This document shows, piece after piece, positions 17,693 through 39,768 of a stretch of 64,000 bases of DNA (its first letter is position 1; each line of letters begins with the position of its first letter). The notes beneath the pieces were generated by a model. The model was not told where the DNA came from. It made no database searches and saw nothing but the letters and a program-made list of their open reading frames with translations. Location: NCBI GenBank assembly GCA_025998755.1, contig AP024674.1, positions 2,682,162-2,746,161 on the forward strand, read 5' to 3'. This DNA comes from Armatimonadota bacterium. Its GTDB lineage: Bacteria > Armatimonadota > UBA5829 > DSUL01. The position numbers were made by a program, and so were the translations under genes.

Positions 17693-18802
17693 TCAGCCGG
17701 CCGCTGTTTCCTGACGGGGTGGAACCGATGCAGTGGACGGCAGACGCTCAGAAAGAGGCGGATACAGCGCCGATGCGATGATATACAGGCTGGCCGCCAC
17801 AGGCACTCCCAGGATGAAGCCTACCAGCCCGAACAGTTCACTGCCCGCCAGGATGGCAAACAGCGCCGCCAGGGGGTTCAGCCCTGTGAACCGGCCCAGA
17901 ATACGGGGCGTCAGCACGGTGTCGAACAGCGTAAGGTTCAAACCCAAGACCACCGCCGTCACCACCACCGCGCTCACCAGGTTTCCACCGGGCGCCATCA
18001 GCGTAACCAGCGCCACTGTCAGCGTCAGAAGCAGTGTTCCAATATAAGGCACGGCGTAAAGCAGCGCCGCCAGCATCCCAAGCAAGAACGGATAGCTTGC
18101 CTCTATGCCCGGGATCTGGTCCAGAAGCAGCAGAACGCAGGTGACGGTCACACCGTAAGTGCAACACAGGACTATGAGCCCGCGCAAATACCCCAGGAAG
18201 ACCGTTCCGACCTTCTCCATCACCTCCGCCACTCCTTCCCGATACTGCGGAGGCACCACATGGATCGCTCGCTGCTTCATTTTCGGCCAGTCGTTCAGCA
18301 TGTAGAATGTGGCGATCAGCATCACGATGACGTTCAGCAAGAACCCGATCGTCCCGGAGAGCCCGCCAAGCAGCCTTCGAAGCATTTTCGGCCCCTCCGT
18401 CTTCGCCACCTCTTCCAGTGTCGCGCTCAGCTCTGCCGCCGTTCGCGGGATGGGCAGGCGCAGTCGCTCCACCAGGTCGTGGCTCGAAATGGAGACCCAG
18501 AGCTTGCGGGCCTGGTCTATATACGCAGGCCACTGCCGGGCCAGCGCCTCGCCTTCTGCCACGATGATGGGGAGGAGCCAGAACAGAAGCGACCCCATCA
18601 ACGTGAAAAACACCACGTAGACGATCAGCACCCCGTAGCTGCGGGGCAGACCGCGCCGCTGCAGCCGCTGCAGGGCGGGATCCAGCACCGCCGCCACCGC
18701 CATGGCGATCAGGAACGGAGTGAGGACGCGGCTCACCAGCCACAGCAGCACGACGACGAAGGCCAGCACCACCGCAGCCGCCGCGAGGCGCGACGCCCGC
18801 AT
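17693..18802 (-). CDS. AI-2E/PerM family transporter
   Basis: The 369-residue membrane protein shows the family layout: two N-terminal membrane helices (AAAVVLAFVVVLLWLVSRVL, then a segment ending VAAVL), VLIVYVVFFTLMGSLLFWLL, a soluble stretch (about 90-170), then four or five closely spaced helices with FLLGMLAALLYAVPYIG and LNPLAALFAILAGSELFGLVG, the conserved family core. Members are predicted exporters, some of autoinducer-2 and some acting as antiporters in salt stress. It begins 11 bp after the sigma-factor stop and is the last gene of the fur-to-sigB operon, so it is probably stress-induced. Confidence 0.92.
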   Translation of the reverse strand: MRASRLAAAAVVLAFVVVLLWLVSRVLTPFLIAMAVAAVLDPALQRLQRRGLPRSYGVLIVYVVFFTLMGSLLFWLLPIIVAEGEALARQWPAYIDQARKLWVSISSHDLVERLRLPIPRTAAELSATLEEVAKTEGPKMLRRLLGGLSGTIGFLLNVIVMLIATFYMLNDWPKMKQRAIHVVPPQYREGVAEVMEKVGTVFLGYLRGLIVLCCTYGVTVTCVLLLLDQIPGIEASYPFLLGMLAALLYAVPYIGTLLLTLTVALVTLMAPGGNLVSAVVVTAVVLGLNLTLFDTVLTPRILGRFTGLNPLAALFAILAGSELFGLVGFILGVPVAASLYIIASALYPPLSERLPSTASVPPRQETAAG

Positions 18803-18813
18803 GGGGACCGGCG

Positions 18814-19581
18814 CTACGCTGTCAGCATTTCCCGCAGCTTTTTGAGCGCCTTGTTCTGAAGCCGCGACACGTGCATCTGGCTGATGTTCAGACGTTTGGC
18901 CACCTCCGTCTGCGACATATCGAGGAAATAGCGGTAGAGAAGCACTGCGCGCTCACGCTCGCCCAGGTTCTGCATGGCTCGCGTGAGGTCGTCATATAGC
19001 TCCAGTTTCTCCAGCAGCTCGTCCTGCGCCCCCAGCGAGTCGGACGGCTTCATCCCCGCCGCATCCCCTTCGCTGGACGAGGGAGCATCCACGGAGACCG
19101 GTGAATACGCGCTGGCCACGGCCAGCCCGTCGAGAACGTCCTGCGGTGGCACCTGCAGACGTTCCGCGATCTCCTCGATAGTGGGTTCGCGTCCCAGTTC
19201 GTGCGAAAGCTCCTCAGAGACCTTGGAGACCTGCTGGTTCAGCTCCTGAAGGCGCCGCGGGACCTTCAGACCCCACGCCCTGTCCCGGAAATAACGGCGG
19301 ATCTCCCCCACAATGGTGGGTGTGGCGAAGGTGCAGAACTTCGAGCCGCGAGAGGGGTCGTAGCGGTCAACGGCCTTGATCAGGCCGATATTGCCCACGG
19401 CGATCAGATCTTCCAGAGGCTCGCCGCGGTTGGCGAACTTGCTGGCCAGGTAGCGCACCAGCCTCTGGTTAGAGTCTATGAGCTGCTTCCTGAGGCGCGG
19501 GTCCCGTGTCCTGGCGAATTCCCTGAAAAGCTCCTCGGAATCGTCGCGGTCGGCGTTGCCCCGGCGGCTACCCCGCGGCAT
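18814..19581 (-). CDS. sigB: RNA polymerase sigma factor, SigB/SigF/SigG group
   Basis: About 255 residues from ATG 19581 (a GTG at 19596 is possible). Region 2 is excellent: NQRLVRYLASKF, DLIAVGNIGLIKAVDRYDPS, then RGSKFCTFATPTIVGEIRRYFRD, quoted here as KFCTFATPTIVGEIRRYF, the hallmark of the SigB/F/G group. Region 3 includes LGREPTIEEIAERLQ and region 4 includes LGERERAVLLYRYFLDMSQTEVAKRLNISQ (helix-turn-helix; key part SQTEVAKRLNIS). The start overlaps the end of the rsbW-like gene by 14 bp, so the two are translationally coupled. It would direct RNA polymerase to general-stress promoters; a matching promoter precedes hsp20 at 26008-26033. Confidence 0.95.
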   Translation of the reverse strand: MPRGSRRGNADRDDSEELFREFARTRDPRLRKQLIDSNQRLVRYLASKFANRGEPLEDLIAVGNIGLIKAVDRYDPSRGSKFCTFATPTIVGEIRRYFRDRAWGLKVPRRLQELNQQVSKVSEELSHELGREPTIEEIAERLQVPPQDVLDGLAVASAYSPVSVDAPSSSEGDAAGMKPSDSLGAQDELLEKLELYDDLTRAMQNLGERERAVLLYRYFLDMSQTEVAKRLNISQMHVSRLQNKALKKLREMLTA

Positions 19582-20017
19582 CTCTTCCCTGTTCACAGTT
19601 TTTGACCAGGCGAACCACCTGTCCCCCGCCGGCGGCCTCGCCGATTCCCACCTCATCCACCAGAAGCTGCATCAGGGAGATGCGGAAGCTTTCGTCATCG
19701 AAGTCCGGATCAATATCCAGGGAACCGGAAGGACCGGCTTCCGGGGGAATGGGAACATCGTCGCAGATGGTGAGGACGATGCGTCCTTCCTCCAGCTCGC
19801 CTGTTACGGTGATACGCGAGGCCGCGCGTCCCGCCTTTTCCGCCCGTTGCACCGAGGATGCGCAGGCTTCTCCCACCGCCAGGCGCAGGTCCTCCACCTC
19901 GTTGTACGAGAGGGGAAGCCGCCCGCACAGACCCAGAACGGCAAGCCGCACCACCGAGACATACTCGGCCAGCGCAGGGACTCTGAGTTCCATCACCGGC
20001 GCATCGTTGAGCGACAC
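19568..20017 (-). CDS. rsbW: RsbW-like anti-sigma factor (serine kinase)
   Basis: The 149-residue protein has a GHKL ATPase fold: VEDLRLAVGEACASSV is the N-box, IVLTICDDV the G1 region and ISLMQLLVDEV the equivalent of the G2 helix. In SigB systems it binds and holds the sigma factor, and phosphorylates its antagonist RsbV. GTG at 20017 is preceded by AAAGGAAC and lies 4 bp after the rsbV stop. Gene order rsbV-rsbW-sigB is the classic partner-switch arrangement, which supports the assignment beyond the sequence itself. Confidence 0.9.
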   Translation of the reverse strand: MSLNDAPVMELRVPALAEYVSVVRLAVLGLCGRLPLSYNEVEDLRLAVGEACASSVQRAEKAGRAASRITVTGELEEGRIVLTICDDVPIPPEAGPSGSLDIDPDFDDESFRISLMQLLVDEVGIGEAAGGGQVVRLVKNCEQGRDAAG

Positions 20018-20021
20018 GGGC

Positions 20022-20372
20022 TCAGTTCCTTTCCGCGCGCGCGACCGCCTCGTCCACCGACTTCAGGATGGTGAACACATTATGCAGCCCCGTAACCTCC
20101 AGCACGTGCTGGATCCTGGGCTTGGGGTTCACCAGAAATACCTCGCCGCCGTTCTCACGCGAGCGCTTCAGACCGGCCACCAGGATCCCCAGACCGCTGG
20201 AGTCCAGGTAGTCCACCTTGCTCAGGTCCATGACGAGATACTTCGACCCGCCGTCAAGCTGCTCCAGCATCGCCGACCGGACCCGGGGAGACGAATACAC
20301 GTCCACTTCTCCGGAGAGAGAGACCACTGCGATGTTGTCTCCCCGTTTCTCCGTATGGATGCCCAGTTCCAT
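20022..20372 (-). CDS. rsbV: RsbV-like anti-sigma-factor antagonist (STAS domain)
   Basis: The 116-residue protein is a single STAS domain: VVSLSGEVDVYSSPRVRSAM, YLVMDLSKVDYLDSSGLGIL, whose Ser in DSSGLG is the usual phosphorylation site, and VLEVTGLHNVFTI. Unphosphorylated RsbV binds RsbW and frees the sigma factor. I chose ATG 20372 because GGAGG precedes it by 4 bp; an upstream in-frame start would add an unlikely charged tail. No RsbU-type phosphatase is in the window. Confidence 0.93.
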   Translation of the reverse strand: MELGIHTEKRGDNIAVVSLSGEVDVYSSPRVRSAMLEQLDGGSKYLVMDLSKVDYLDSSGLGILVAGLKRSRENGGEVFLVNPKPRIQHVLEVTGLHNVFTILKSVDEAVARAERN

Positions 20373-20500
20373 CAAACCTCCAGACTCTTCCCTGCCGGAC
20401 TGTGCCTCTCGCGCATCTTTACCGGGCTTGCCCAACGTTCCCAGCCGGGAATCGCGGGTGGCGCCCGTCCCGCGGACGGCTTCCGTTCCCTGTTTCTTTC

Positions 20501-20830
20501 TTAGCCCACGTTCTCGGTCGAGGATTCCACCTCTTCCGCTGCCTGGCTGACCGCCTCGCGCCCGGCCTCCACGGCCTCCTTGATGCGAACGCTGGCTTCC
20601 TCCACCAGATCCTTGCCTTTGGCGGCCAGCTCCTCGGCGCGGGAGACCAGGTCACCCGCCACCCGCTCGGCCTTGCTCTTTAGATCATCCAGAGTATGCC
20701 GGACATCCTCGCGCATCTCCGTGCCCGTCTTCGGGGCGAAAAGCAGGGCCACAGCGGCCCCAACCAGCGCCCCCAATCCCACACCCGCCAGCACATTGAT
20801 CAGGACATTGCGGTCGTTTCGCTCATCCAT
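20501..20830 (-). CDS. YtxH domain general-stress protein
   Basis: The 109-residue protein opens with VLAGVGLGALVGAAVALLFAPKTGTEMREDV, of which ALVGAAVALLFAPKTGTEMR is the YtxH signature: a glycine-rich membrane helix followed by APKsGkE. The rest is a charged helical, probably coiled-coil segment. YtxH proteins of Bacillus are SigB-controlled, which fits a neighbour two genes from sigB. It overlaps the end of the DUF948-like gene by 8 bp. Confidence 0.88.
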   Translation of the reverse strand: MDERNDRNVLINVLAGVGLGALVGAAVALLFAPKTGTEMREDVRHTLDDLKSKAERVAGDLVSRAEELAAKGKDLVEEASVRIKEAVEAGREAVSQAAEEVESSTENVG

Positions 20831-21233
20831 TCCTGCTCTCGTCCTTTCGTTTGTCGGAGGGGTTCAACAATCTGTCCAACCCCGCAGCCACACCGGCCGC
20901 CACCCGTGCCGCCATTCCGGCCGAGTTGGCCGCAACCTTTTTCGCCGTTCCCACCGCACGCAGACCCGTCACCGCGCTTGCCACAGCGCCCACCGCACGC
21001 TCCGCCGCGCCGATCTTCACCGTCACAGACTGCACGGTCTGTTGCACCTGGTCGAGGATACTGTTCGCGCGGTCTGTTACGGTGCGCACCTGGGTCTGGA
21101 CGGCTTCGGAGGTCTCAGTGACAACCTTCGCTATCCGCCGCAGCACGAGGAAGGCCATCAGCAGCATGAGGATGATGAAGGCCACCAGGATGGTGAGCAA
21201 GATAGCGATCCACAGGCCCTGGCCGGCTGTCAC
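20823..21233 (-). CDS. DUF948-like membrane-anchored protein
   Basis: The 136-residue protein has one N-terminal membrane helix (AILLTILVAFIILMLLMAFLVL), then a long amphipathic helix (VVTETSEAVQTQVRTVTDRA and onward) and an alanine-rich C-terminus. This is the layout of DUF948 proteins, often paired with YtxH in Gram-positive genomes, and the pair occurs here. Function is unknown; a cell-envelope stress role is inferred from its neighbours. Its start overlaps the mnmA stop as ATGA. Confidence 0.75.
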   Translation of the reverse strand: MTAGQGLWIAILLTILVAFIILMLLMAFLVLRRIAKVVTETSEAVQTQVRTVTDRANSILDQVQQTVQSVTVKIGAAERAVGAVASAVTGLRAVGTAKKVAANSAGMAARVAAGVAAGLDRLLNPSDKRKDESRNG

Positions 21234-22354
21234 TGCTGCACTCCTCCTTCAACGGGCTGCCTGGCCCCGCGGCACACGCTCTCGATCGTGCCGCCGCCTA
21301 GCACCGTCTCCCCGTCATAGAACACAGCTGCCTGTCCCGGGGTCGGTGCGCGTTCCGGGGTGACAAATTCAAGCTCCCACTCGCCGTCCGGCAGCGGCCG
21401 GACTGTGGCCGGGACTTCGCGCATATTGTATCTGACTTTACAGGTCACGGCAATCGGACCGGCCGGAGGCACTCCCGACACCCACTTTACCGCTCCCACC
21501 CGCACGCTGGTGGTCATCAACTCTTCCCACGGGCCCACGGTGATGATATTCCGGCATGTGTCTATGTCCACCACATACAGTGGTTCGGCGGCGGCCACGC
21601 CGATCCCCTTCCTCTGTCCGATGGTGAACCCGGCTGCTCCGGGGTGCCTTCCCAGAAGCCTGCCCGATGTGTCCCGGATCTCTCCCGGCACCGCGGTCTC
21701 GGGCCTGCGCTGCGCCAGGAAGGCGCGGTGGCCTTCGCTGCCCACAAAGCAGATCTCCTGACTGTCCGGCTTCCGCCACACTGGCAGCCCCATCTCTCTG
21801 GCCAGCGTCCGGGCGTCCTTCTTGGCCATATCCCCCAGAGGAAACTCCAGGCGCGCAAGCTCCCGCTGCCCCAACATATACAGAACGTAAGACTGATCTT
21901 TCCGGGGGTCGGCCGCGCGCAGGAGGGTGAACCGTCCTTCAGCGTCCCGGCCGATCCGCGCATAGTGCCCCGTGGCCAGGCGGTCCGCCCCCAGAGCCTG
22001 CGCTTTGCCCAGCAGGGCGCTGAACTTCACGTGCTCGTTGCACCGGATGCACGGGTTCGGGGTCCTCCCGCGCGAGTATTCGTCCAGAAAATCGGCGATG
22101 ACGGAGCGTTCGAACTCTTCCCGCATGTTGAGGACGTAATGGGGGATGTCCAGCATTGTGGCCACGCGACGCGCGTCCTCCACGGCGTCCAGCGAGCAGC
22201 AACCCTGCCCCTCGGAAGGCGCGTCGGACGGCCAGATCTGCAGCGTCACTCCGATGACGTTATACCCCCGCTCCTTCAGCAGAGCTGCGGCGACGGAGCT
22301 GTCCACTCCGCCACTCATGGCCACCACCACTGTCATGCCGGTTCTGTCCGTCAC
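21230..22354 (-). CDS. mnmA: tRNA-specific 2-thiouridylase MnmA
   Basis: The 374-residue enzyme installs the 2-thio group on wobble uridine 34 of Lys, Glu and Gln tRNAs. VVVAMSGGVDSSVAA is the PP-loop that adenylates the base; CIRCNEHVKF holds the first catalytic Cys, and DSQEICFVG the second that carries the persulfide. GHYARIG and KDQSYVLYML are also typical. GTG at 22354 was favoured because GAGGTG lies 6 bp upstream; ATG 22336 is an alternative. It begins 28 bp after the Fur-family gene and ends in an ATGA overlap with the next gene. Confidence 0.96.
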   Translation of the reverse strand: MTDRTGMTVVVAMSGGVDSSVAAALLKERGYNVIGVTLQIWPSDAPSEGQGCCSLDAVEDARRVATMLDIPHYVLNMREEFERSVIADFLDEYSRGRTPNPCIRCNEHVKFSALLGKAQALGADRLATGHYARIGRDAEGRFTLLRAADPRKDQSYVLYMLGQRELARLEFPLGDMAKKDARTLAREMGLPVWRKPDSQEICFVGSEGHRAFLAQRRPETAVPGEIRDTSGRLLGRHPGAAGFTIGQRKGIGVAAAEPLYVVDIDTCRNIITVGPWEELMTTSVRVGAVKWVSGVPPAGPIAVTCKVRYNMREVPATVRPLPDGEWELEFVTPERAPTPGQAAVFYDGETVLGGGTIESVCRGARQPVEGGVQQ

Positions 22355-22382
22355 GGCGCCCACCTCGCGGGATCGTTCCGCC

Positions 22383-31232: not shown

Positions 31233-34200
31233 GTGAAATCCATCAGTTTTAGAATAACAGCATTGCTTTGCCTGGCGGCCGTTGCTCTCGCGGCGGCACT
31301 TCTCGTCCGTCACCGGACGCTCACGACCGAGGCGGAGATGATCGCGGCCCAGGTCCGCGAAGAGCGATCGCACACACTGGACCGCATCGTACAGCTCCAC
31401 TCGCGCAGGGTCTGGAGCCTGGTGTACGACTACACCTTCTGGGACGCGATGGTGGAGTTCGTGCTCGAAAGAGACGCCGGGAAAGCGAGCAGTTTCCTCG
31501 ACTCTGCCCTCCAGACCTACGGGACGGACGGCATCTGGGTCTACAACCTGCAAAGGGAACAGATCTACGCCGCTCATAGTTCTCGCGCCGGTTCCAGGCT
31601 GCTGACTATGCGTCTCCCGCCGGAAACGTTCAAGGAGATCAAGAGGCGTCGCCTGCTAAGATTCTTCACTTGGACTCCACAGGGTCTGCTGGAGATCCAC
31701 GGCGCAACGATTCACTCGTCGGCCGACGAGGATCGCCTGGGGACGCCTTACGGCTACTTCCTGGCCGGCAAACTCTGGGATGAGGAGACTCTGGCCTCAT
31801 TGGCAAAGGACGCCGCTTGCCGGTTAGCGGTCCTTCGTCGCCCTGGCAATCGCCAACAGGACCAGGTGGGCGCCTTCACATACCTGCAGCCGCTGCCGGG
31901 CTGGAACGGAAGGGAAGTGGCGTATCTTCAGGCCTCTTTCGAAAGCCCCGGCTTGAAGGCGCTAGCAAGAGGCTCGCTTCAGCAGCTTGTTATATCCCTT
32001 GCGATGACTGCCGCGCTGTTAAGCCTGATGGCCATCCTGCTGGCCCGTTGGGTCGGGAAACCGTTGGAGCGGGTGGCGCGAGCCGCGAGCACGGGTGACC
32101 TGGAGCGCATCGCGGAGCTGCAAAGCCAGTCGACGGAGATCGGAGAAATTGCACGGCTCATTGGACAATTCTTCCAGCAGGAAGAGAGGAAGCGGGAGGA
32201 AACCCGCGAGCGGGAGCGTCTGCTACGCGCCTGGCAGGAGAGTGAAGAGCGCTACCGCGTTGTTGCCGAGATCACGGGCAACGTTATCTTCCAGGTGGAT
32301 AGGGACGGCTTTTTCACCTTCCTGAACCCGGCCTGGAAGGAGTTGACGGGCTTCACCGTGCAGGAGGGACTGGGACACTGTTCCCTGGAATTCTTGCCGG
32401 AAGAAGACCGCGAACAGGCGATGGAGCAATTCTGGAAGCTGCGCGAGCCGGGACATCCTCCTGTCGCGGCGCACGTTCGCTTCATCCGCAAAGATGGCAG
32501 CCTCCGTTGGGCGTGGGTCAAAGCGGGGCAGGTGCTCTCACCTACAGGCGAGGTTGTCGCCTCCATCGGAATAATGACGGATGTGACCGAGCACCTCCAG
32601 CAGCAGCAGGAGATCGAGCGGCTCTCCCTGGTGGCGCGCAAGACCGCAAACGCTGTCGTCCTCACCGATTTGGACCTCCGCATCACCTGGGTCAATGAAG
32701 CCTTCTCGCGGCTGACAGGTTACAGCACGGAAGACGTTCTCGGCACGAGGGCGGACGAAGTGCTTATCGCGCCCGGTTCCTCTAAGGATGTGGCTGAGGA
32801 GGTTCGCCGGAAACTGGCGGAGTGCGTCGGGTTCCAGATGGAGATCTGCCAGAGGACGAAGTCCGGCGACCCCTGCTGGACACTGCTGGAGGCCACGCCC
32901 ATCCGCAGAGAGGACGGAGCTCCGGACGGGTTTGTGCTTATCCAGACGGACATCACGCAGACCCGCAGGCGAGAGATGGAGTTCCGTGCCCAGACCGAAG
33001 CGCTGGAGCTCCAGCTGCTCCAGCAAAAACACTCGGCGGACAGGACCTGCCGGGAGTTGGAGCGTCAGCTAGAGGAGCGAATGAAGTCGGAAGAGGAGCT
33101 GCGGCGCGAGCTGGAGCGGCTGGAGCAGATCCGCCGTCGCTTGGAAGAGCAAACAATAACCCTGCTGAAACAGGCGGAAGAGTTGACCTTCACCCGGGAC
33201 AAGGCGCTCGAGGCCGCGCGGTTGAAGTCCGAGTTCCTTGCCAACATGAGCCACGAGATCCGCACTCCGCTGAACGGCGTCATCGGGATGACCTCGCTTC
33301 TGCTGGACACCTCATTGAGCGAAGAGCAGCGCGACTTCGCCGAGACCATCCGCACGAGCGGAGAGGTCCTGCTGTCCGTCATCAACGATATTCTGGACTA
33401 CTCCAAGATGGAAGCCGGCAGGCTGGAGCTGGAGTGCCTGGACTTCAACCTGCGGACGGTCCTGGAGGAAGCGCTGGACGTCCTGGCAGTGCGCGCGGCC
33501 GAAAAGGGCTTGGAGCTTGTCCTGGATCTGCCCCAGGACGTCCCGCAACTCTTGAAAGGCGACGCAGGCAGGCTGCGGCAGGTGTTGCTGAACCTGATCG
33601 GCAACGGCGTGAAGTTCACCAGAGAGGGAGAGGTCGCAGTGTCGGTGGCGGTGGTGGATCAGGATCGCACATCCGCCACCCTGCGGTTCGCCGTTTCCGA
33701 CACCGGGATCGGCATCCCGAAAGAGGCGCAGGAGCGCCTCTTCCAGCCTTTTTCCCAGGCCGATGGCTCGATGACGCGCAAATACGGGGGCACGGGGCTG
33801 GGGCTTGCCATCTCCCGCAGGCTGGTTGAACTGATGGGCGGCACAATCTCCGTGCAAAGTGAGCCAGGTAAAGGGTCTACCTTCTTCTTCACCGCGTGTT
33901 TTCAGAGACAGGCGTCGCAGAGACCTGCCAAGCGCCCTCCGGCGGACATCCGGGGCCTCAAGGTGCTGGCCGTCGACGATAACGCCACCAACCGCCGAAT
34001 CCTTTACGAGCAGCTGAAGGCGTGGGGATGCCGGCCTGCAACTGCCTCCTGCGCCTCAGAAGCGCTGGAAATCCTTCGCCTAAGCGCTGCCGAAGACCCG
34101 TTCCGTGTCGCCCTGCTGGACCTGCAGATGCCCGAAGTGGACGGGCTGACACTGGGAAAGCAGATCCGAAACGATCCGCAGAACGCCGGGTGTATGCTGA

Positions 34201-34838
34201 TACTTCTGACCTCCGTGGTGGGCGTCGGTGCGAGAGAACAGGCTCTCGAAGCGGGCTTTTCCGCCACGCTCACCAAGCCGGTGAAGCAGTCGGCGCTGTT
34301 CGAATCACTGGTGGACGCCGCGGCGGCGGCCGGTTGGACGGCTCATCCGGGATCCATCTCGGAGGCGAACGCTCAGCCGGTCGCCCAGCCCGGCGGCAAC
34401 CGCAGCAGGCCGCGCACGCCGCAGGTCCGCTGCCTGGTGGTGGATGATAACCCCGTCAACCGGACGGTCGCCGAGCAGATGCTGCTACGCGAGCGCTGCC
34501 ACGTTGACCTGGCGACGAACGGCCAGGAGGCTTTGGAAGCCTTGGAGCTGAGCTGCTATGACATTGTGTTCCTGGATCTCCAGATGCCGGTGCTGGGCGG
34601 GCTGGAAGCCACGCGGCAGATCCGCGCGAGCGAAAAAGCATCGGGGCGCCACGCGTGGATTGTGGCCATGACGGCACATGCTCTGCCGGAGGACCGAGAG
34701 AAATGCCTGGCGGCCGGGATGGATGACTACATTGCAAAGCCGCTGACGGCGACGGACATCCGGCAAGCGATCCAGAGGTGGAGGGTTGCAGTCTCTCGCC
34801 GCACGGGCGAGCGAAGGTCTGAAAGACAGGTCGCCTGA
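31233..34838 (+). CDS. hybrid sensor histidine kinase (CHASE4-like, PAS-PAS-HisKA-HATPase-REC-REC)
   Basis: The 1201-residue protein has membrane helices at about 7-24 and 250-272 enclosing an extracellular CHASE4-like sensor ([17 protein letters not shown]). After a HAMP-like linker come two PAS domains (about 335-450 and 460-575) and a coiled coil. HisKA has [19 protein letters not shown] with the phospho-accepting His near 674; the ATPase has [19 protein letters not shown] and [13 protein letters not shown]. Two receiver domains follow, with [12 protein letters not shown] (Asp near 962) and [12 protein letters not shown] (Asp near 1115). It should phosphorelay internally and pass signal to an unknown partner. 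GTG 31233 has a weak ribosome site. The next gene, an HD-GYP protein, starts 57 bp downstream. Confidence 0.93.
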
Positions 34839-34895
34839 AACAGGGGCAAAGTCCAACAGCCAGCAAGGGTAAGCGCGCTGGACCGGCTACTGGCG

Positions 34896-36779
34896 GTGCA
34901 GCGCGAACGCAGACAACGCATGAAAGAGGGCCGTACCACAACAACCGAAGAGACAGGTGGGAAGTCCAGGTCATCACTGCTCGCGAGGCTGAGCTTGCGA
35001 TGGAACGGACACCTGGAGCGCCGGGTGCGCGAGCGGACGGAAGAGCTTCACCGGTTGAACCTGGAGCTCGAGGCAGAGATCGGCGAGCGCAGGCGCATCG
35101 AGGACTCGCTGCGCCGCCGGGCTGCATTCGAGCAGGATATAGCCGTAATTTTCGCGAATTTTATTAACCTTCCCTCGCATAAGTTGGAGCAGGAGATTGC
35201 CCGAGCGCTGGAAGTCCTTGCCCGGCACACGGGAGCAGACGCCTGTCTGCTGTGGGAACTTACCGAAGATGGCGGCAGCGTGAAAATGCGCCATCACTGG
35301 GCCAGCCCTGACCTCAAGTTACCCGTCTTCTGCGAGGATTTCTATCCTGTGCAGCCATTCGGATGGTGGATGGACCGGATGCGGGCTTTCGAGCCCATAC
35401 TGGTCTCGAGAGTCGATGAGCTGCCCGACGAAGCATCGGCCGAGCGGTCAGCCTTGCAGGAACTGGGACTGCACTCTCTGATGGCAGTGCCAGTTGCCTC
35501 TCGCGGATGGCTGAAGGGGTTTGTGGCGCTCTGGGCGATCCGCGCTCCCAGAGAGTGGGAGGAGGACGACGTTCCGCTGGTGAGGCTGGCGGGCGAGGCC
35601 CTTTCCAGCGCCCTGGAGCGTCAGCGCTCCGAGCAGCAGGTCCGCCGTCTGAACAGTTTGCTGGAGAAGCGCATTCAGCGGCTGAACGCGCTCCGGCAGA
35701 TTGACATCTGTATCGCGACTGGGATGGATCTCCACGTTTCGATGGGGATGCTGCTCTCTCAAGCCCGGGAGCAGCTGGGAGCAGCAGTCGCCGCGATACT
35801 TCTGCTTGATGAGGACAGCCAGACACTCCGATACGCCTACAGCGAGGGACTGCCGCTTCAATCCCTCGAGCAGACCCTCCTGAAATTGGGGGAGCAGTTT
35901 CCGGGACAGGCGGCTCTCACGGGGGAGATCATCTGCGTGGACGATTTTGAAACCCTCCCAGAGGTCTCTCGCCCTCGAAGCCCGGCCCTGCGTTGCGGAA
36001 AGTTTAGGGCATGCTGTTCCGCGCCCCTGACGGTGCGTGGCACGACAAAAGGAGCCCTGGAGTTATTGTTTGAACAACCCGTACTCGCCGATCGGGAATG
36101 GAAGGATTTTGTGGCCATGCTGGCCAGCCTGGCCGGCATCGCCATTGACAGCCATCGGCTGGTGTCCGACCTGCAGCAGACCAACCGGGAGCTCATCGCG
36201 GCCTATGACGCGACCATCGAGGGGTGGTCCCGGGCTATGGACCTGCGGGACCGGGCAACCTGGGGCCACAGCGACCGGGTGGCATCTCTGACGGTGCGTG
36301 TGGCAAGACGCCTGGGAGTCCCCGAGGAAGAACTGGTTCATATCCGCCGCGGAGCACTGCTCCATGACATTGGCAAGATGGCGACACCGGATACCATTCT
36401 GCTGAAACCGGGAAAGCTGACCGAGGAGGAGCGCGCCATCATGGAGCAGCACACCACCCACGCATATGAGATGCTTTCCCCCATCGAGTTTCTCAGACCC
36501 GCTCTGGACATCCCCTTCTGCCATCATGAACGGTGGGACGGTTCGGGTTATCCGCGGGGGTTGAAGGGAGAGGAGATCCCGCTCGGAGCGCGGGTATTCG
36601 CTGTTGTGGACGTATTCGACGCGCTCACTTCCGACCGTCCGTACCGATCCGGGTGGTCCAGGGACAAGGCGCTGGAGCACATCTGCGCGCTGGCGGGCTC
36701 GCATTTCGATCCTCGGGTGGTGGAGGCGTTTATGCAGGAGTTGCTCGAACATGGCGGGGGACTTCGCGAAGCAGCCTGA
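34896..36779 (+). CDS. GAF-GAF-HD-GYP cyclic-di-GMP phosphodiesterase
   Basis: About 627 residues from GTG 34896; ATG 34920 is an equally plausible start. A coiled coil (ERRVRERTEELHRLNLELEAE region) leads to two GAF domains at about 80-240 and 260-420. The C-terminal HD-GYP domain has GALLHDIGKMATPD, HTTHAYEMLS, IPFCHHERWDGSGYPRGLKG and VVDVFDALTSDRPYR, all residues expected for an active c-di-GMP phosphodiesterase. There is no membrane segment. Position right after the hybrid kinase suggests shared signalling, perhaps with the GAF domains sensing a second input. It carries no receiver domain of its own. Confidence 0.92.
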   Translation: MQRERRQRMKEGRTTTTEETGGKSRSSLLARLSLRWNGHLERRVRERTEELHRLNLELEAEIGERRRIEDSLRRRAAFEQDIAVIFANFINLPSHKLEQEIARALEVLARHTGADACLLWELTEDGGSVKMRHHWASPDLKLPVFCEDFYPVQPFGWWMDRMRAFEPILVSRVDELPDEASAERSALQELGLHSLMAVPVASRGWLKGFVALWAIRAPREWEEDDVPLVRLAGEALSSALERQRSEQQVRRLNSLLEKRIQRLNALRQIDICIATGMDLHVSMGMLLSQAREQLGAAVAAILLLDEDSQTLRYAYSEGLPLQSLEQTLLKLGEQFPGQAALTGEIICVDDFETLPEVSRPRSPALRCGKFRACCSAPLTVRGTTKGALELLFEQPVLADREWKDFVAMLASLAGIAIDSHRLVSDLQQTNRELIAAYDATIEGWSRAMDLRDRATWGHSDRVASLTVRVARRLGVPEEELVHIRRGALLHDIGKMATPDTILLKPGKLTEEERAIMEQHTTHAYEMLSPIEFLRPALDIPFCHHERWDGSGYPRGLKGEEIPLGARVFAVVDVFDALTSDRPYRSGWSRDKALEHICALAGSHFDPRVVEAFMQELLEHGGGLREAA

Positions 36780-36794
36780 ATACCTCCGGGGGAT

Positions 36795-36823
36795 TTGACG
36801 CGCCGCCCGGCCGTGACTATAGT
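36795..36823 (+). promoter_or_regulatory. sigma-70 promoter of the DoxX operon
   Basis: TTGACG (36795-36800), 17 bp, TATAGT (36818-36823). Both boxes match at five of six positions. The predicted start near 36830 lies about 50 bp before the doxX ATG. Confidence 0.75.
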
Positions 36824-36882
36824 CCTGTGCGGCTGCGGCACAGAGCGGAAGACCTGTGGAGGCCGTGGCCGGAGAGTGGCCG

Positions 36883-37359
36883 ATGTCGGATATCAAGACC
36901 AGGCGCTGGATCGCCCTCGCAAGGATTGCGGCGGGGCTGGCGTTGCTCTACGGCGCGCTCCCCAAGTTCAGCGTGGGATTCCTTCAGGGGTTCCCCTCCA
37001 GTGTGAGCGCGTGCGCAACCGGCAACCCGTTTCCGTGGCTGAGGACTTTTCTGGTGGAGATGGTGCTGCCCCATCAGCAGGTGTTCGCGGTGATGCTGGC
37101 GGTGGTGGAACTGCTGATGGGCGTGGCGCTGACTCTGGGATTCCTGACCGGGCTCGCCTCGCTTGCGGCCATGATCTGGGCTGCTTTGATGATGCTTGCC
37201 ACCTCGCATCTGACGAATCCTCTGCCGTATGCTCCTCCCGCCGCGCTGGCTCCAGGAGCGCATGCCGTGCTGCTTTTTCTGCTTTTCTTCGTCAGCCGAG
37301 CAGGGCGGACCTGGGGTGTGGATGCGCGGGTGGCCCCAGGGAAGGGCTGGATCTGGTAG
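36883..37359 (+). CDS. DoxX family membrane protein
   Basis: The 158-residue protein has four membrane helices: ALARIAAGLALLYGALPKF with the family's early GxxxxxxGxxKF pattern, a segment with VFAVMLAVVELLMGVALTLG, LASLAAMIWAALMMLATSH and HAVLLFLLFFVSRAG. DoxX relatives range from quinol-oxidase subunits to redox-stress membrane complexes; the exact role here is open. ATG 36883 has GGAGAG 7 bp upstream. It is the first gene of a promoter-led operon with two apparently inactive enzyme homologues. Confidence 0.85.
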   Translation: MSDIKTRRWIALARIAAGLALLYGALPKFSVGFLQGFPSSVSACATGNPFPWLRTFLVEMVLPHQQVFAVMLAVVELLMGVALTLGFLTGLASLAAMIWAALMMLATSHLTNPLPYAPPAALAPGAHAVLLFLLFFVSRAGRTWGVDARVAPGKGWIW

Positions 37360-37367
37360 GCAAGCTG

Positions 37368-37874
37368 ATGTTGCGCGTATGGCTCATCGCCTGGCAGGCC
37401 GGTGGTGACGCCGCGACTCAAGACGTCTCTGCCCGGCTGGCCAGGCAAGAATTCCGGGAGGTGCTGTATCGTCCCGGAGGACCGGCGTCGGATCTCGCCC
37501 GCGCCATCGCAGGTCGTTGCGGCCTGCAGGAGAAGGCCCTCACTGCCGATGCTTCCTGTAGGAAAGATGCCACAGTGTCCGGAGGTCTGCTGGGGCTGCT
37601 GGAGGCGCTGCGCTCCGGCGAAGGAGACGAAGGCAGCATCTGCGTACTGGTGGAGCCGGAAGAGTGCCGGCGGGCGGTCTGTGAAATTATGGGATTGCCC
37701 GGGGGGCGTGAGAACGCCGTGAGGCTGGATCCGGGGGCAGTGAATCTTCTTCTGTTCGACCCCCGTCGTGGCTGGATGCTGGAGACTGTCAACGACACGG
37801 AGCACCTCCGGCGCTGGCAGGAAACACCACAGGCGCCCGCGCAGCCTACCAGGAAGCACGCGGCGGAATCTTGA
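37368..37874 (+). CDS. degenerate histidine-phosphatase-like protein
   Basis: The 168-residue protein follows the plan of the histidine phosphatase (phosphoglycerate mutase-like) family but lacks its catalytic residues. The first strand reads RVWLIAWQAGGDA where active enzymes have L-x-R-H-G-x-T. The substrate-proximal Arg segment appears as RPGGPASDLARAIAGRCGL. The last conserved His region appears as ICVLVEPEECRRAVCEIMGL where H-G-G would be expected. The length and strand order still fit. It is probably a binding or regulatory pseudoenzyme. It starts 8 bp after doxX and is 24 bp before the ADP-ribosylglycohydrolase-like gene. Family placement is by pattern only. Confidence 0.6.
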   Translation: MLRVWLIAWQAGGDAATQDVSARLARQEFREVLYRPGGPASDLARAIAGRCGLQEKALTADASCRKDATVSGGLLGLLEALRSGEGDEGSICVLVEPEECRRAVCEIMGLPGGRENAVRLDPGAVNLLLFDPRRGWMLETVNDTEHLRRWQETPQAPAQPTRKHAAES

Positions 37875-37898
37875 GGAGCGGCTAGAGAGGGCACGGAA

Positions 37899-38942
37899 CT
37901 GGACACAGAGCTGTTTGACCGGATCTATGGCTGTCTGCTGGGGGTGGCGATCGGCGACGCGCTGGGTCAGCCGCGCAGGGGGCTGGACTGGCGGGGAGTG
38001 CAGGAGCGCTTCGGAGGCGCTCTGGAGCTGGCTCCCTGGCCGCTGGATGCCCAGCCCGTGGCACAACAGCCGGCTGGACGAATCGGCGAGCTGGCGCAGC
38101 TGGTGATGCGCCTTTCGCTGCGGGCGGGAGCATCCGGCATCCGGCCGCGCACCGGGCTGCTGGTGGACGAGCTTCTGGGGATGGAGACCCTCTCCAGCCT
38201 GCCCGCGCAGGCCGCCGTCGCGCGCATCCGCGCCGGAATAGAGCCCACACGGTCCGCCGTTCCTGAGCTGGCCGGGCCCGAGGCGCTGTATGTGGCCGTG
38301 CCCGTCGGCATTGCCAATGCGGGCGATCCCGAGACAGCCTTCCTGGCGACGCGGGCGATCGCCGGCACCATCCTTCTCGGCGCGTCCCTTGATGCCGGTC
38401 AGACGTTCGCCGCAGGGGTCTCCGCGGCGCTCATCCCGGGAGCCACTCCGTCTTCTATTCTGGAAGTGATGCTGGACCTTGCCCCCCCCGGTGTCTCGCG
38501 GGAACTGGTGCCGGCTGCACGTTTCGCGGCCGCGCATCTGGGCGATCCCACCGACAATCTGATGCCAGCCATCCACGACCGCTTCTCCTCGCGGCGCTCC
38601 GCGGACGTGCACGGCCCGGCGGTGGAGTCCCTGGTGGTGGCAGCGATGCTGGTATACCTCAGCGACGGCTTGCCCGGGCAGTCTCTGCGGGCTGCGGCAT
38701 CCTACGGCGGCTGGAGTCATGCCACCACGGCTGCAGCCGGAGCTCTGGCGGGATGCCTGTCCGGGGCGACATCCATGCCGCAGGAGTTGACGCAGACCGT
38801 TCTTGCCGCCAATCCGGACGTGGACATCGTCCAGGCAGCCCGGCAACTTTGCAGGCTGATCCGCCTGGAGTGTGAGAGGCAGAGGAAACGGCTGGATCAG
38901 ATTGAGCAGCTGGCCGGGGCGGATGCGGCTCAAAGGCGCTGA
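37899..38942 (+). CDS. ADP-ribosylglycohydrolase-like protein with degenerate metal sites and a non-AUG start
   Basis: About 347 residues. The family's N-terminal signature DRIYGCLLGVAIGDALGQP is intact, but it lies upstream of the first GTG (37944). In-frame sequence opens only after a stop at 37872-37874 and has no ATG, GTG or TTG before the signature, so a CTG at 37899 with AGAGAGGG 7 bp upstream is the best start. The two metal-binding motifs of active enzymes are lost: the usual T-D-D-T stretch reads WPLDAQPVAQ, and the usual G-G-D-T-D-T reads YGGWSHATTAAAGALAGC. The helical fold appears kept. It is probably a non-catalytic ADP-ribose-binding or scaffold protein partnered with the two genes before it. 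Confidence 0.68.
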   Translation: MDTELFDRIYGCLLGVAIGDALGQPRRGLDWRGVQERFGGALELAPWPLDAQPVAQQPAGRIGELAQLVMRLSLRAGASGIRPRTGLLVDELLGMETLSSLPAQAAVARIRAGIEPTRSAVPELAGPEALYVAVPVGIANAGDPETAFLATRAIAGTILLGASLDAGQTFAAGVSAALIPGATPSSILEVMLDLAPPGVSRELVPAARFAAAHLGDPTDNLMPAIHDRFSSRRSADVHGPAVESLVVAAMLVYLSDGLPGQSLRAAASYGGWSHATTAAAGALAGCLSGATSMPQELTQTVLAANPDVDIVQAARQLCRLIRLECERQRKRLDQIEQLAGADAAQRR

Positions 38943-39032: not shown

Positions 39033-39096
39033 CGAAAAAGCCCGGCCGGTGGCCCGGCCGGGCAGTTACGAGAAAGGAGGGTGGGAAGCTTTCGTT
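39033..39096 (-). ncRNA. small RNA unit 1 (anti-Shine-Dalgarno type)
   Basis: The 24-nt block is at 39093-39070. A 10-bp GCCCGGCCGG stem (39063-39054 with 39049-39040) with a 4-nt loop is followed by TTTTTCGTG. Predicted length is about 64 nt. It is the last unit; the rightward ADP-ribosylglycohydrolase-like gene ends about 90 bp further left. Confidence 0.75.
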
Positions 39097-39102
39097 TCTT
39101 CT

Positions 39103-39128
39103 GACGTCGGCCTCGTCTGTTTTGTTCC
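39103..39128 (-). promoter_or_regulatory. ECF-type promoter of small RNA unit 1
   Basis: Read leftward, GGAACA (39128-39123), 16 bp, CGTC (39106-39103). An A-rich segment (GTGTGAAAAAAGTTTACAG) lies upstream. Confidence 0.78.
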
Positions 39129-39230
39129 CGCTCTGTAAACTTTTTTCACACTATTTCTAATCCGAAGTCCGGACAGTTAGCGGTTGTGGAACGCCCTGCG
39201 ACAGCTCCGCCCCCGGCCGGTGTCTGAGAT

Positions 39231-39304
39231 GCCATACAACAACCGACCCCCGGCCTCCAAGGGCCGGGGGTCGGAAGAGAAAGGAGGGTGGGAAGCTTTC
39301 TATC
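39231..39304 (-). ncRNA. small RNA unit 2 (anti-Shine-Dalgarno type)
   Basis: The 24-nt block is at 39300-39277. A 12-bp stem (39273-39262 with 39255-39244) encloses a 6-nt loop. Its tail, GTTGTTGTATGG, is the weakest of the four. Predicted length is about 74 nt. Confidence 0.72.
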
Positions 39305-39310
39305 TTCTAG

Positions 39311-39336
39311 GACGGATCCACCGGGCGAAAGGTTCC
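39311..39336 (-). promoter_or_regulatory. ECF-type promoter of small RNA unit 2
   Basis: Read leftward, GGAACC (39336-39331), 16 bp, CGTC (39314-39311), with an A/T-rich stretch upstream. Confidence 0.8.
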
Positions 39337-39500
39337 GCCAGCGAAACAAATTCTTCAACAATTCTTTGCCCCGGCCGACCCGGGAGACACTCCTTTGATC
39401 TCCGTGTCTTGACCTGCCCGCCGCGGTTTCAGCTTTACAATGGCAGGTCACTGCGCCGGGAGCGACCGCGTCACCAGCCGCTCTGAGCACGATGGGCCGC

Positions 39501-39569
39501 AAAACAACCAACCCCCGGCTCTGCTGAGCCGGGGGCTGGAAGAGAAAGGAGGGTGGGAAGCTTTCTACC
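39501..39569 (-). ncRNA. small RNA unit 3 (anti-Shine-Dalgarno type)
   Basis: The 24-nt block is at 39565-39542. A 10-bp stem (39535-39526 with 39521-39512; GCCGGGGG-type sequence unlike unit 4) with a 4-nt loop ends in TGGTTGTTTT. Predicted length is about 69 nt. Confidence 0.75.
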
Positions 39570-39575
39570 TACTTT

Positions 39576-39601
39576 GACGTAAACCATTGCAGAAAGGTTC
39601 C
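39576..39601 (-). promoter_or_regulatory. ECF-type promoter of small RNA unit 3
   Basis: Read leftward, GGAACC (39601-39596), 16 bp, CGTC (39579-39576), preceded by an A-rich region (GAAAAAAGATGAAAAAAACG). Confidence 0.8.
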
Positions 39602-39702
39602 GCCCGGAAAACGTTTTTTTCATCTTTTTTCCCGTCGCCCCTTATGCCGTCGAGCAGGAATGCGGGCGGGACCGGTGCGGGTGTCTTCTGGCGGGACAAG
39701 CC

Positions 39703-39768
39703 AAAGAAAATCCCCGGGCGGTGACCCGCCCGGGGTTGAGAGAGAAAGGAGGGTGGGAAGCTTTCATC
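39703..39768 (-). ncRNA. small RNA unit 4 (anti-Shine-Dalgarno type)
   Basis: The transcript should start 6-8 nt after the -10, just before the conserved 24-nt block that begins GAAAGCTTCCC and ends CCTCCTTTCTC. Six nucleotides later a 10-bp stem (39735-39726 with 39721-39712) closes a 4-nt loop and runs into ATTTTCTTTGG. The predicted RNA is about 66 nt: an unpaired pyrimidine-rich 5' half and a terminator. Confidence 0.75.

Follow-up and report, generated by a model that had tools for sequence, protein, structure and literature searches.

Pseudoenzymes are best studied in eukaryotes. DoxX-family membrane proteins are known from mycobacteria, where DoxX, SodA, and SseA form a membrane-associated oxidoreductase complex. 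Among ADP-ribosylglycohydrolases (ARHs), ARH1 and ARH3 hold Mg ions in the ADP-ribose pocket (PMC9738213). For vertebrate ARH2, activity was not detected, in keeping with its altered critical residues, and this protein may act in myofibril assembly (PMC9738213, PMC7390403). Migrated or new catalysis is also known among pseudoenzymes (PMC10211241). Our literature searches found no work joining DoxX with a histidine phosphatase (HP) and none on ARH, pseudoenzymes, and bacteria together. A conserved bacterial operon in which a membrane protein is combined with two unrelated pseudoenzymes would offer a small and testable case of how enzyme folds turn into parts of complexes.

We analyzed a window of 64,000 nucleotides (positions 2682162-2746161) of a single-contig 3.29-Mb Armatimonadota genome (G000), and compared it with a sister species (G001) and with representatives of a second (G002) and a third genus (G003). 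Three co-oriented genes, separated by gaps of 8 and 24 bases, encode a DoxX-family protein, a pseudo-histidine phosphatase (pHP; P0002), and a pseudo-ADP-ribosylglycohydrolase (pARH; P0003). Their coordinates (Table 1) had been predicted correctly from the sequence, as had a good sigma-70 promoter before doxX. In the 2.6 kb searched, two promoter-like sites were observed versus 0.2 expected, and one of them is the site upstream of the operon. Similar sites precede doxX in two other genera (TTGACG-N18-TATGAT at L069 5915-5944 and, read by eye, TTGACG-N18-TATAGT at L068 165-194). The first hexamer is located 68 to 88 bases before the DoxX start codon in all three genera. Since the promoter recurs in three genera, a chance occurrence is unlikely. 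The region directly upstream (31233-36779) encodes, in the same direction, a GAF-HD-GYP protein and a large hybrid histidine kinase with CHASE4, PAS, and receiver domains.

Table 1. Features of the DoxX-pHP-pARH locus (positions in the window)
Feature	Position	Strand	Evidence or remark
Sigma-70-like operon promoter, TTGACG-N17-TATAGT	36795..36823	+	10/12 consensus; like sites in two other genera
DoxX-family membrane protein, 158 aa	36883..37359	+	PF07681, 26 bits; orthologues 42-44% identical; hydrophobic segments
pHP, 168 aa; H, R, E, H of the active site replaced or deleted	37368..37874	+	Alignments, profile comparison, model
WLIAWQAG where L-x-R-H-G is expected (pHP)	37380..37403	+	Alignment, profile comparison
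Glu96 where the second catalytic His is expected (pHP; VEPEE vs VAHKS)	37653..37655	+	Profile comparison
pARH, 347 aa; start codon probably CTG 37899	37899..38942	+	PF03747, 69.3 bits; dN/dS 0.127
Arg27 replacing Glu of G-D-A-L-G-x-x-x-E (pARH)	37977..37979	+	Same in G000, G001, and G002
R-I-G-E-L-A-Q-L at the T-D-D-T metal-motif site (pARH)	38079..38102	+	Profile alignment
YGGWSHATTAAAGALAG at the G-G-D-T-D-T metal-motif site (pARH)	38703..38753	+	S, H, A, T unchanged across three genomes

The assignment of the first protein to the DoxX family was upheld by PF07681, with 26.0 bits in this genome and 31.7 and 24.4 bits for the others (cut-off 23.6). The locus thus shares a DoxX-family membrane partner with the DoxX-SodA-SseA complex. 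It differs from that system in that no sodA or sseA gene, and hence no superoxide dismutase or sulfurtransferase gene, was recognized within the cassette or directly beside it.

The second protein, originally predicted to be histidine-phosphatase-like, matched no family in a Pfam search when P0002 was used alone. Its orthologues from the two other genera (G003 and G002) pass PF00300 (68.6 and 39.9 bits; cut-off 21.7), and HHalign matched a three-genus pHP alignment to intact HPs from the same class at a probability of 99.4%. The AlphaFold model of pHP (pLDDT 71, pTM 0.68) was superimposed onto PGAM5 (3o0t) with a Z score of 14.8 and an rmsd of 2.0 Å over 130 aligned residues, and onto YhfR with a Z score of 14.7. 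These results agree with the original call. They place pHP, by the fold of the model (Z 13-15), by the C-terminal VNDxxHL segment, and by the profile match of its orthologues, beside branch 1 of the HP superfamily (PF00300; PGAM5, PhoE/YhfR, SixA). Unlike members of this branch, pHP is shortened to about 155-168 aa and lacks the catalytic tetrad His-Arg-Glu-His in all three genera. The R-H-G site reads A-W-Q, S-C-P, and S-A-M across the genera; in G000 the segment is WLIAWQAGG, containing the predicted LIAWQAGG. At the site of the second catalytic His, E, E, and S are found, another residue takes the place of Arg in the S-x-L-x-R-A helix, and the segment carrying the third acid (GEWEG) is deleted. 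The structural overlay, proposed originally as a check, matched HP structures; nevertheless, none of the four catalytic positions has kept its residue, each being replaced or deleted. Because the pocket residues vary among the three genera, a conserved phosphate ligand is unlikely there, and in pHP only the fold, as seen in the model, seems to be kept. The neighbors of those intact HPs that are closest to pHP within the class (tatC and others) gave no clue from context.

The third protein had been called ARH-like, and its match to PF03747 covers the whole domain (positions 1-287 of 287; cut-off 26.2 bits). The G002 orthologue is also matched end to end. Like the PF03747 proteins DraG, ARH1, and ARH3, pARH contains an N-terminal GCLLGVAIGDALG and a C-terminal GALAG segment. 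In contrast to them, it has other residues in place of the TDDT and DTDT metal motifs and of the motif Glu: of the five key acidic positions, four are lost and one is Glu. According to profile alignment, the TDDT columns correspond to G63-E64-L65-A66 within PAGRIGELAQ, and the site reads G-E-L-A in G000 and S-E-T-L in G002. The first metal motif had been placed at WPLDAQPVAQ; this position was wrong, the true site being GRIGELAQ, and the proposed loss of the motif stands. The second motif reads YGGWSHATTAAAG, exactly as predicted. Here, the DTDT columns are W272-S273-H274-A275, and the G-G-D-x-D-T-T site reads G-G-W/L-S-H-A-T. The three other ARHs of this genome have intact D-T-D motifs.

In pARH, Arg, His, and hydrophobic residues thus occupy the positions of the metal ligands, and the pocket segments are conserved. 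Arg27, Glu64, Ser273, His274, and Thr276 are identical in G000, G001, and G002, which represent two genera. Residues 7-31 and 262-286, which frame the old active site, rank among the best-conserved segments between the genera (68% and 64% identity vs 37% overall), and the first-motif segment (55-79) is 24% identical. Between G000 and G001, the dN/dS of pARH is 0.127 (20 nonsynonymous vs 55 synonymous differences), compared with 0.20 for the adjoining GxGYxYP gene. This low value indicates that the gene is maintained by purifying selection and is not a decaying relic. The pocket was deduced from sequence alone; an AlphaFold model of pARH calculated from a two-sequence alignment reached a pLDDT of 43, and its Foldseek matches were meaningless. 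The start codon was also considered. No ATG, GTG, or TTG is present between the upstream stop codon and the conserved N-terminal helix, neither here nor in G001, and the G002 orthologue has an ATG at the place aligned with CTG 37899. Most likely, pARH starts at this CTG and not at GTG 37944.

The solved structure closest to pARH in sequence is 8xks_Q, named ARHL (E 1.1e-11 with the profile, 1.8e-6 with P0003 alone); ARHL is also present in entries 8xqw and 8xqx. We take these structures to be the green-algal chloroplast Ycf2-FtsHi import motor; a literature search and a search of the PDB for FtsH gave no confirmation of the identity of the 8xks complex. Like pARH, ARHL lacks both metal motifs, and the corresponding columns read GDFAN and GGHAPAT. 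Unlike pARH, it has 495 aa with an N-terminal extension. That a component of a solved complex shows the matching motif loss suggests a tendency of the ARH fold to be reused in this way, as a part of complexes. ARH2 (ADPRHL1) resembles pARH as an ARH member with changed critical residues and without detected activity (PMC9738213, PMC7390403). It provides another precedent for noncatalytic use of the ARH fold. It is a eukaryotic, cytoplasmic muscle protein, and we assume that its loss was independent of that in pARH. Tandem double-ARH proteins of approximately 700 aa were also observed (L008, L009, L010, L011, and L013). The metal motifs have been lost from their N-terminal half, and EDDNQ and GRDSDT are preserved in the C-terminal one; in G020, the two parts are encoded by separate, neighboring genes (L012, L023). 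An origin of pARH from these proteins was considered and rejected, as the tree places pARH, weakly and on a long branch, outside their clade.

A search for the three-gene set in related genomes, suggested with the original prediction, retrieved the complete DoxX-pHP-pARH order in G002, whose pARH is 38% identical to that of G000. G001 contains pHP-pARH, with the contig end falling inside pHP, and G003 contains DoxX-pHP without an adjoining pARH; with assembly completeness of 69% (G001) and 80% (G003), gene absence in these genomes is no proof. Among 291 Armatimonadota genomes, pARH was found in three (E below 1e-180; next match 1e-15). A DoxX alignment scan of 84,980 genomes returned only the two genomes already known, the cassette was not found in viral contigs, and plasmids gave only weak ARH matches. 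As far as seen, the cassette is confined to one Armatimonadota family. Its flanks differ, with FemAB-type and alanine-racemase genes downstream in G002 and not in G000. Since the order is kept while the flanks differ, the cassette is old within the family. The catalytic losses are common to the orthologues, for pHP in all three genera and for pARH in each of the three genomes carrying the gene. The adjacent loss of catalysis in two enzymes of unrelated fold, as originally claimed, thus extends beyond the single genome. In the window, positions 17693-22363 comprise a run of mnmA, YtxH-like, STAS, anti-sigma, sigma factor, and PerM-like genes. In G002, this run lies a few genes from the cassette (L029 1801-6705), which is a trace of an old shared neighborhood.

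We favor, with about an even chance of being right, the view that the operon encodes a membrane-associated noncatalytic module. The conserved gene set and the selection on at least one of the two pseudoenzymes suggest that they are probably noncatalytic parts of a membrane-linked complex. DoxX would be the integral membrane part. The shortened HP domain of pHP may have retained its fold for protein binding, and pARH would be a helical domain whose pocket has been rebuilt, with Arg, Glu, and His replacing the metal-binding acids. It may bind a partner or, independently of metal, an anionic ligand; Arg27 and His274, as seen in two genera, possibly form such a metal-free anion site. We infer a single complex of the three products, with pHP and pARH on the inner side of the membrane and a structural or regulatory role for the module. 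The conservation of gene order and promoter across genera, the retained folds (judged from the model of pHP and the profile match of pARH), and the lower dN/dS of pARH than of its neighbor argue for this module. Against it stand the DoxX-pHP pair of G003, which shows that the three genes are not strictly interdependent, the fast divergence of pHP, which is 24-30% identical between genera (30% for G002), and its last 47 codons, for which omega between the sister species is about 1.1, indicating no constraint, with only 9 changes. The two pHP features, together with the loss of all catalytic residues, would fit a decay in which pHP and pARH are both pseudogenes on their way out. The reading frames are open in every genome that has the genes, the promoter and gene order are conserved, and the modeled pHP fold is retained; decay is already disfavored for pARH by its omega, making this the least probable explanation and a very improbable one.

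Of the other explanations, the least unlikely is that DoxX alone matters, and that pHP and pARH are cotranscribed for historical reasons, each acting alone elsewhere. The DoxX-pHP pair of G003 also agrees with such passengers, as do the additional downstream genes in G002. The gene order, constant across genera despite differing flanks, and the short intergenic gaps argue against them. Next in likelihood, and still improbable, is a new chemistry, in which the invariant Arg27, Glu64, Ser273, and His274 would constitute a metal-free active site of a repurposed enzyme, comparable to SelO among pseudokinases. Three of these four residues are in the best-conserved segments, and pseudoenzymes offer a precedent (PMC10211241); only two independent genera are compared, however, and Gly-rich ARH segments are conserved for fold reasons as well. 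About as improbable is a sensor, in line with the ligand suggested originally, in which pARH would bind ADP-ribose or an NAD-related ligand without hydrolysis and signal via pHP to DoxX. The full-length profile match and the two conserved pocket segments are consistent with it. Yet the motifs lost in pARH are those that hold Mg in the ADP-ribose pocket of ARH1 and ARH3 (PMC9738213), and ARHL, the closest relative in the PDB, is likewise devoid of them. A more specific version, with DoxX as anchor, pHP as hinge, and a pARH Arg/His site reading ADP-ribose or a related nucleotide metal-free, has a slim chance. Taken together, the shared losses, the conserved set beside DoxX, and the selection on pARH make it reasonable to assume, as originally proposed, that the module acts at the membrane as a noncatalytic scaffold or sensor.

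Downstream of the operon, at 39040-39765, we observed four copies of an element with spacings of 207, 265, and 200. On the minus strand, it consists of GAAAGCTTCCCACCCTCCTTTCTC followed by a GC-rich hairpin and, in places, a T-run, and it contains CCTCCTTT, the complement of a Shine-Dalgarno sequence. An Rfam search with the element gave no match. Its 21-base core is present in 8, 5, 6, and 3 copies in G000 to G003, and a reversed control in none. The repeat is possibly an undescribed small-RNA family.
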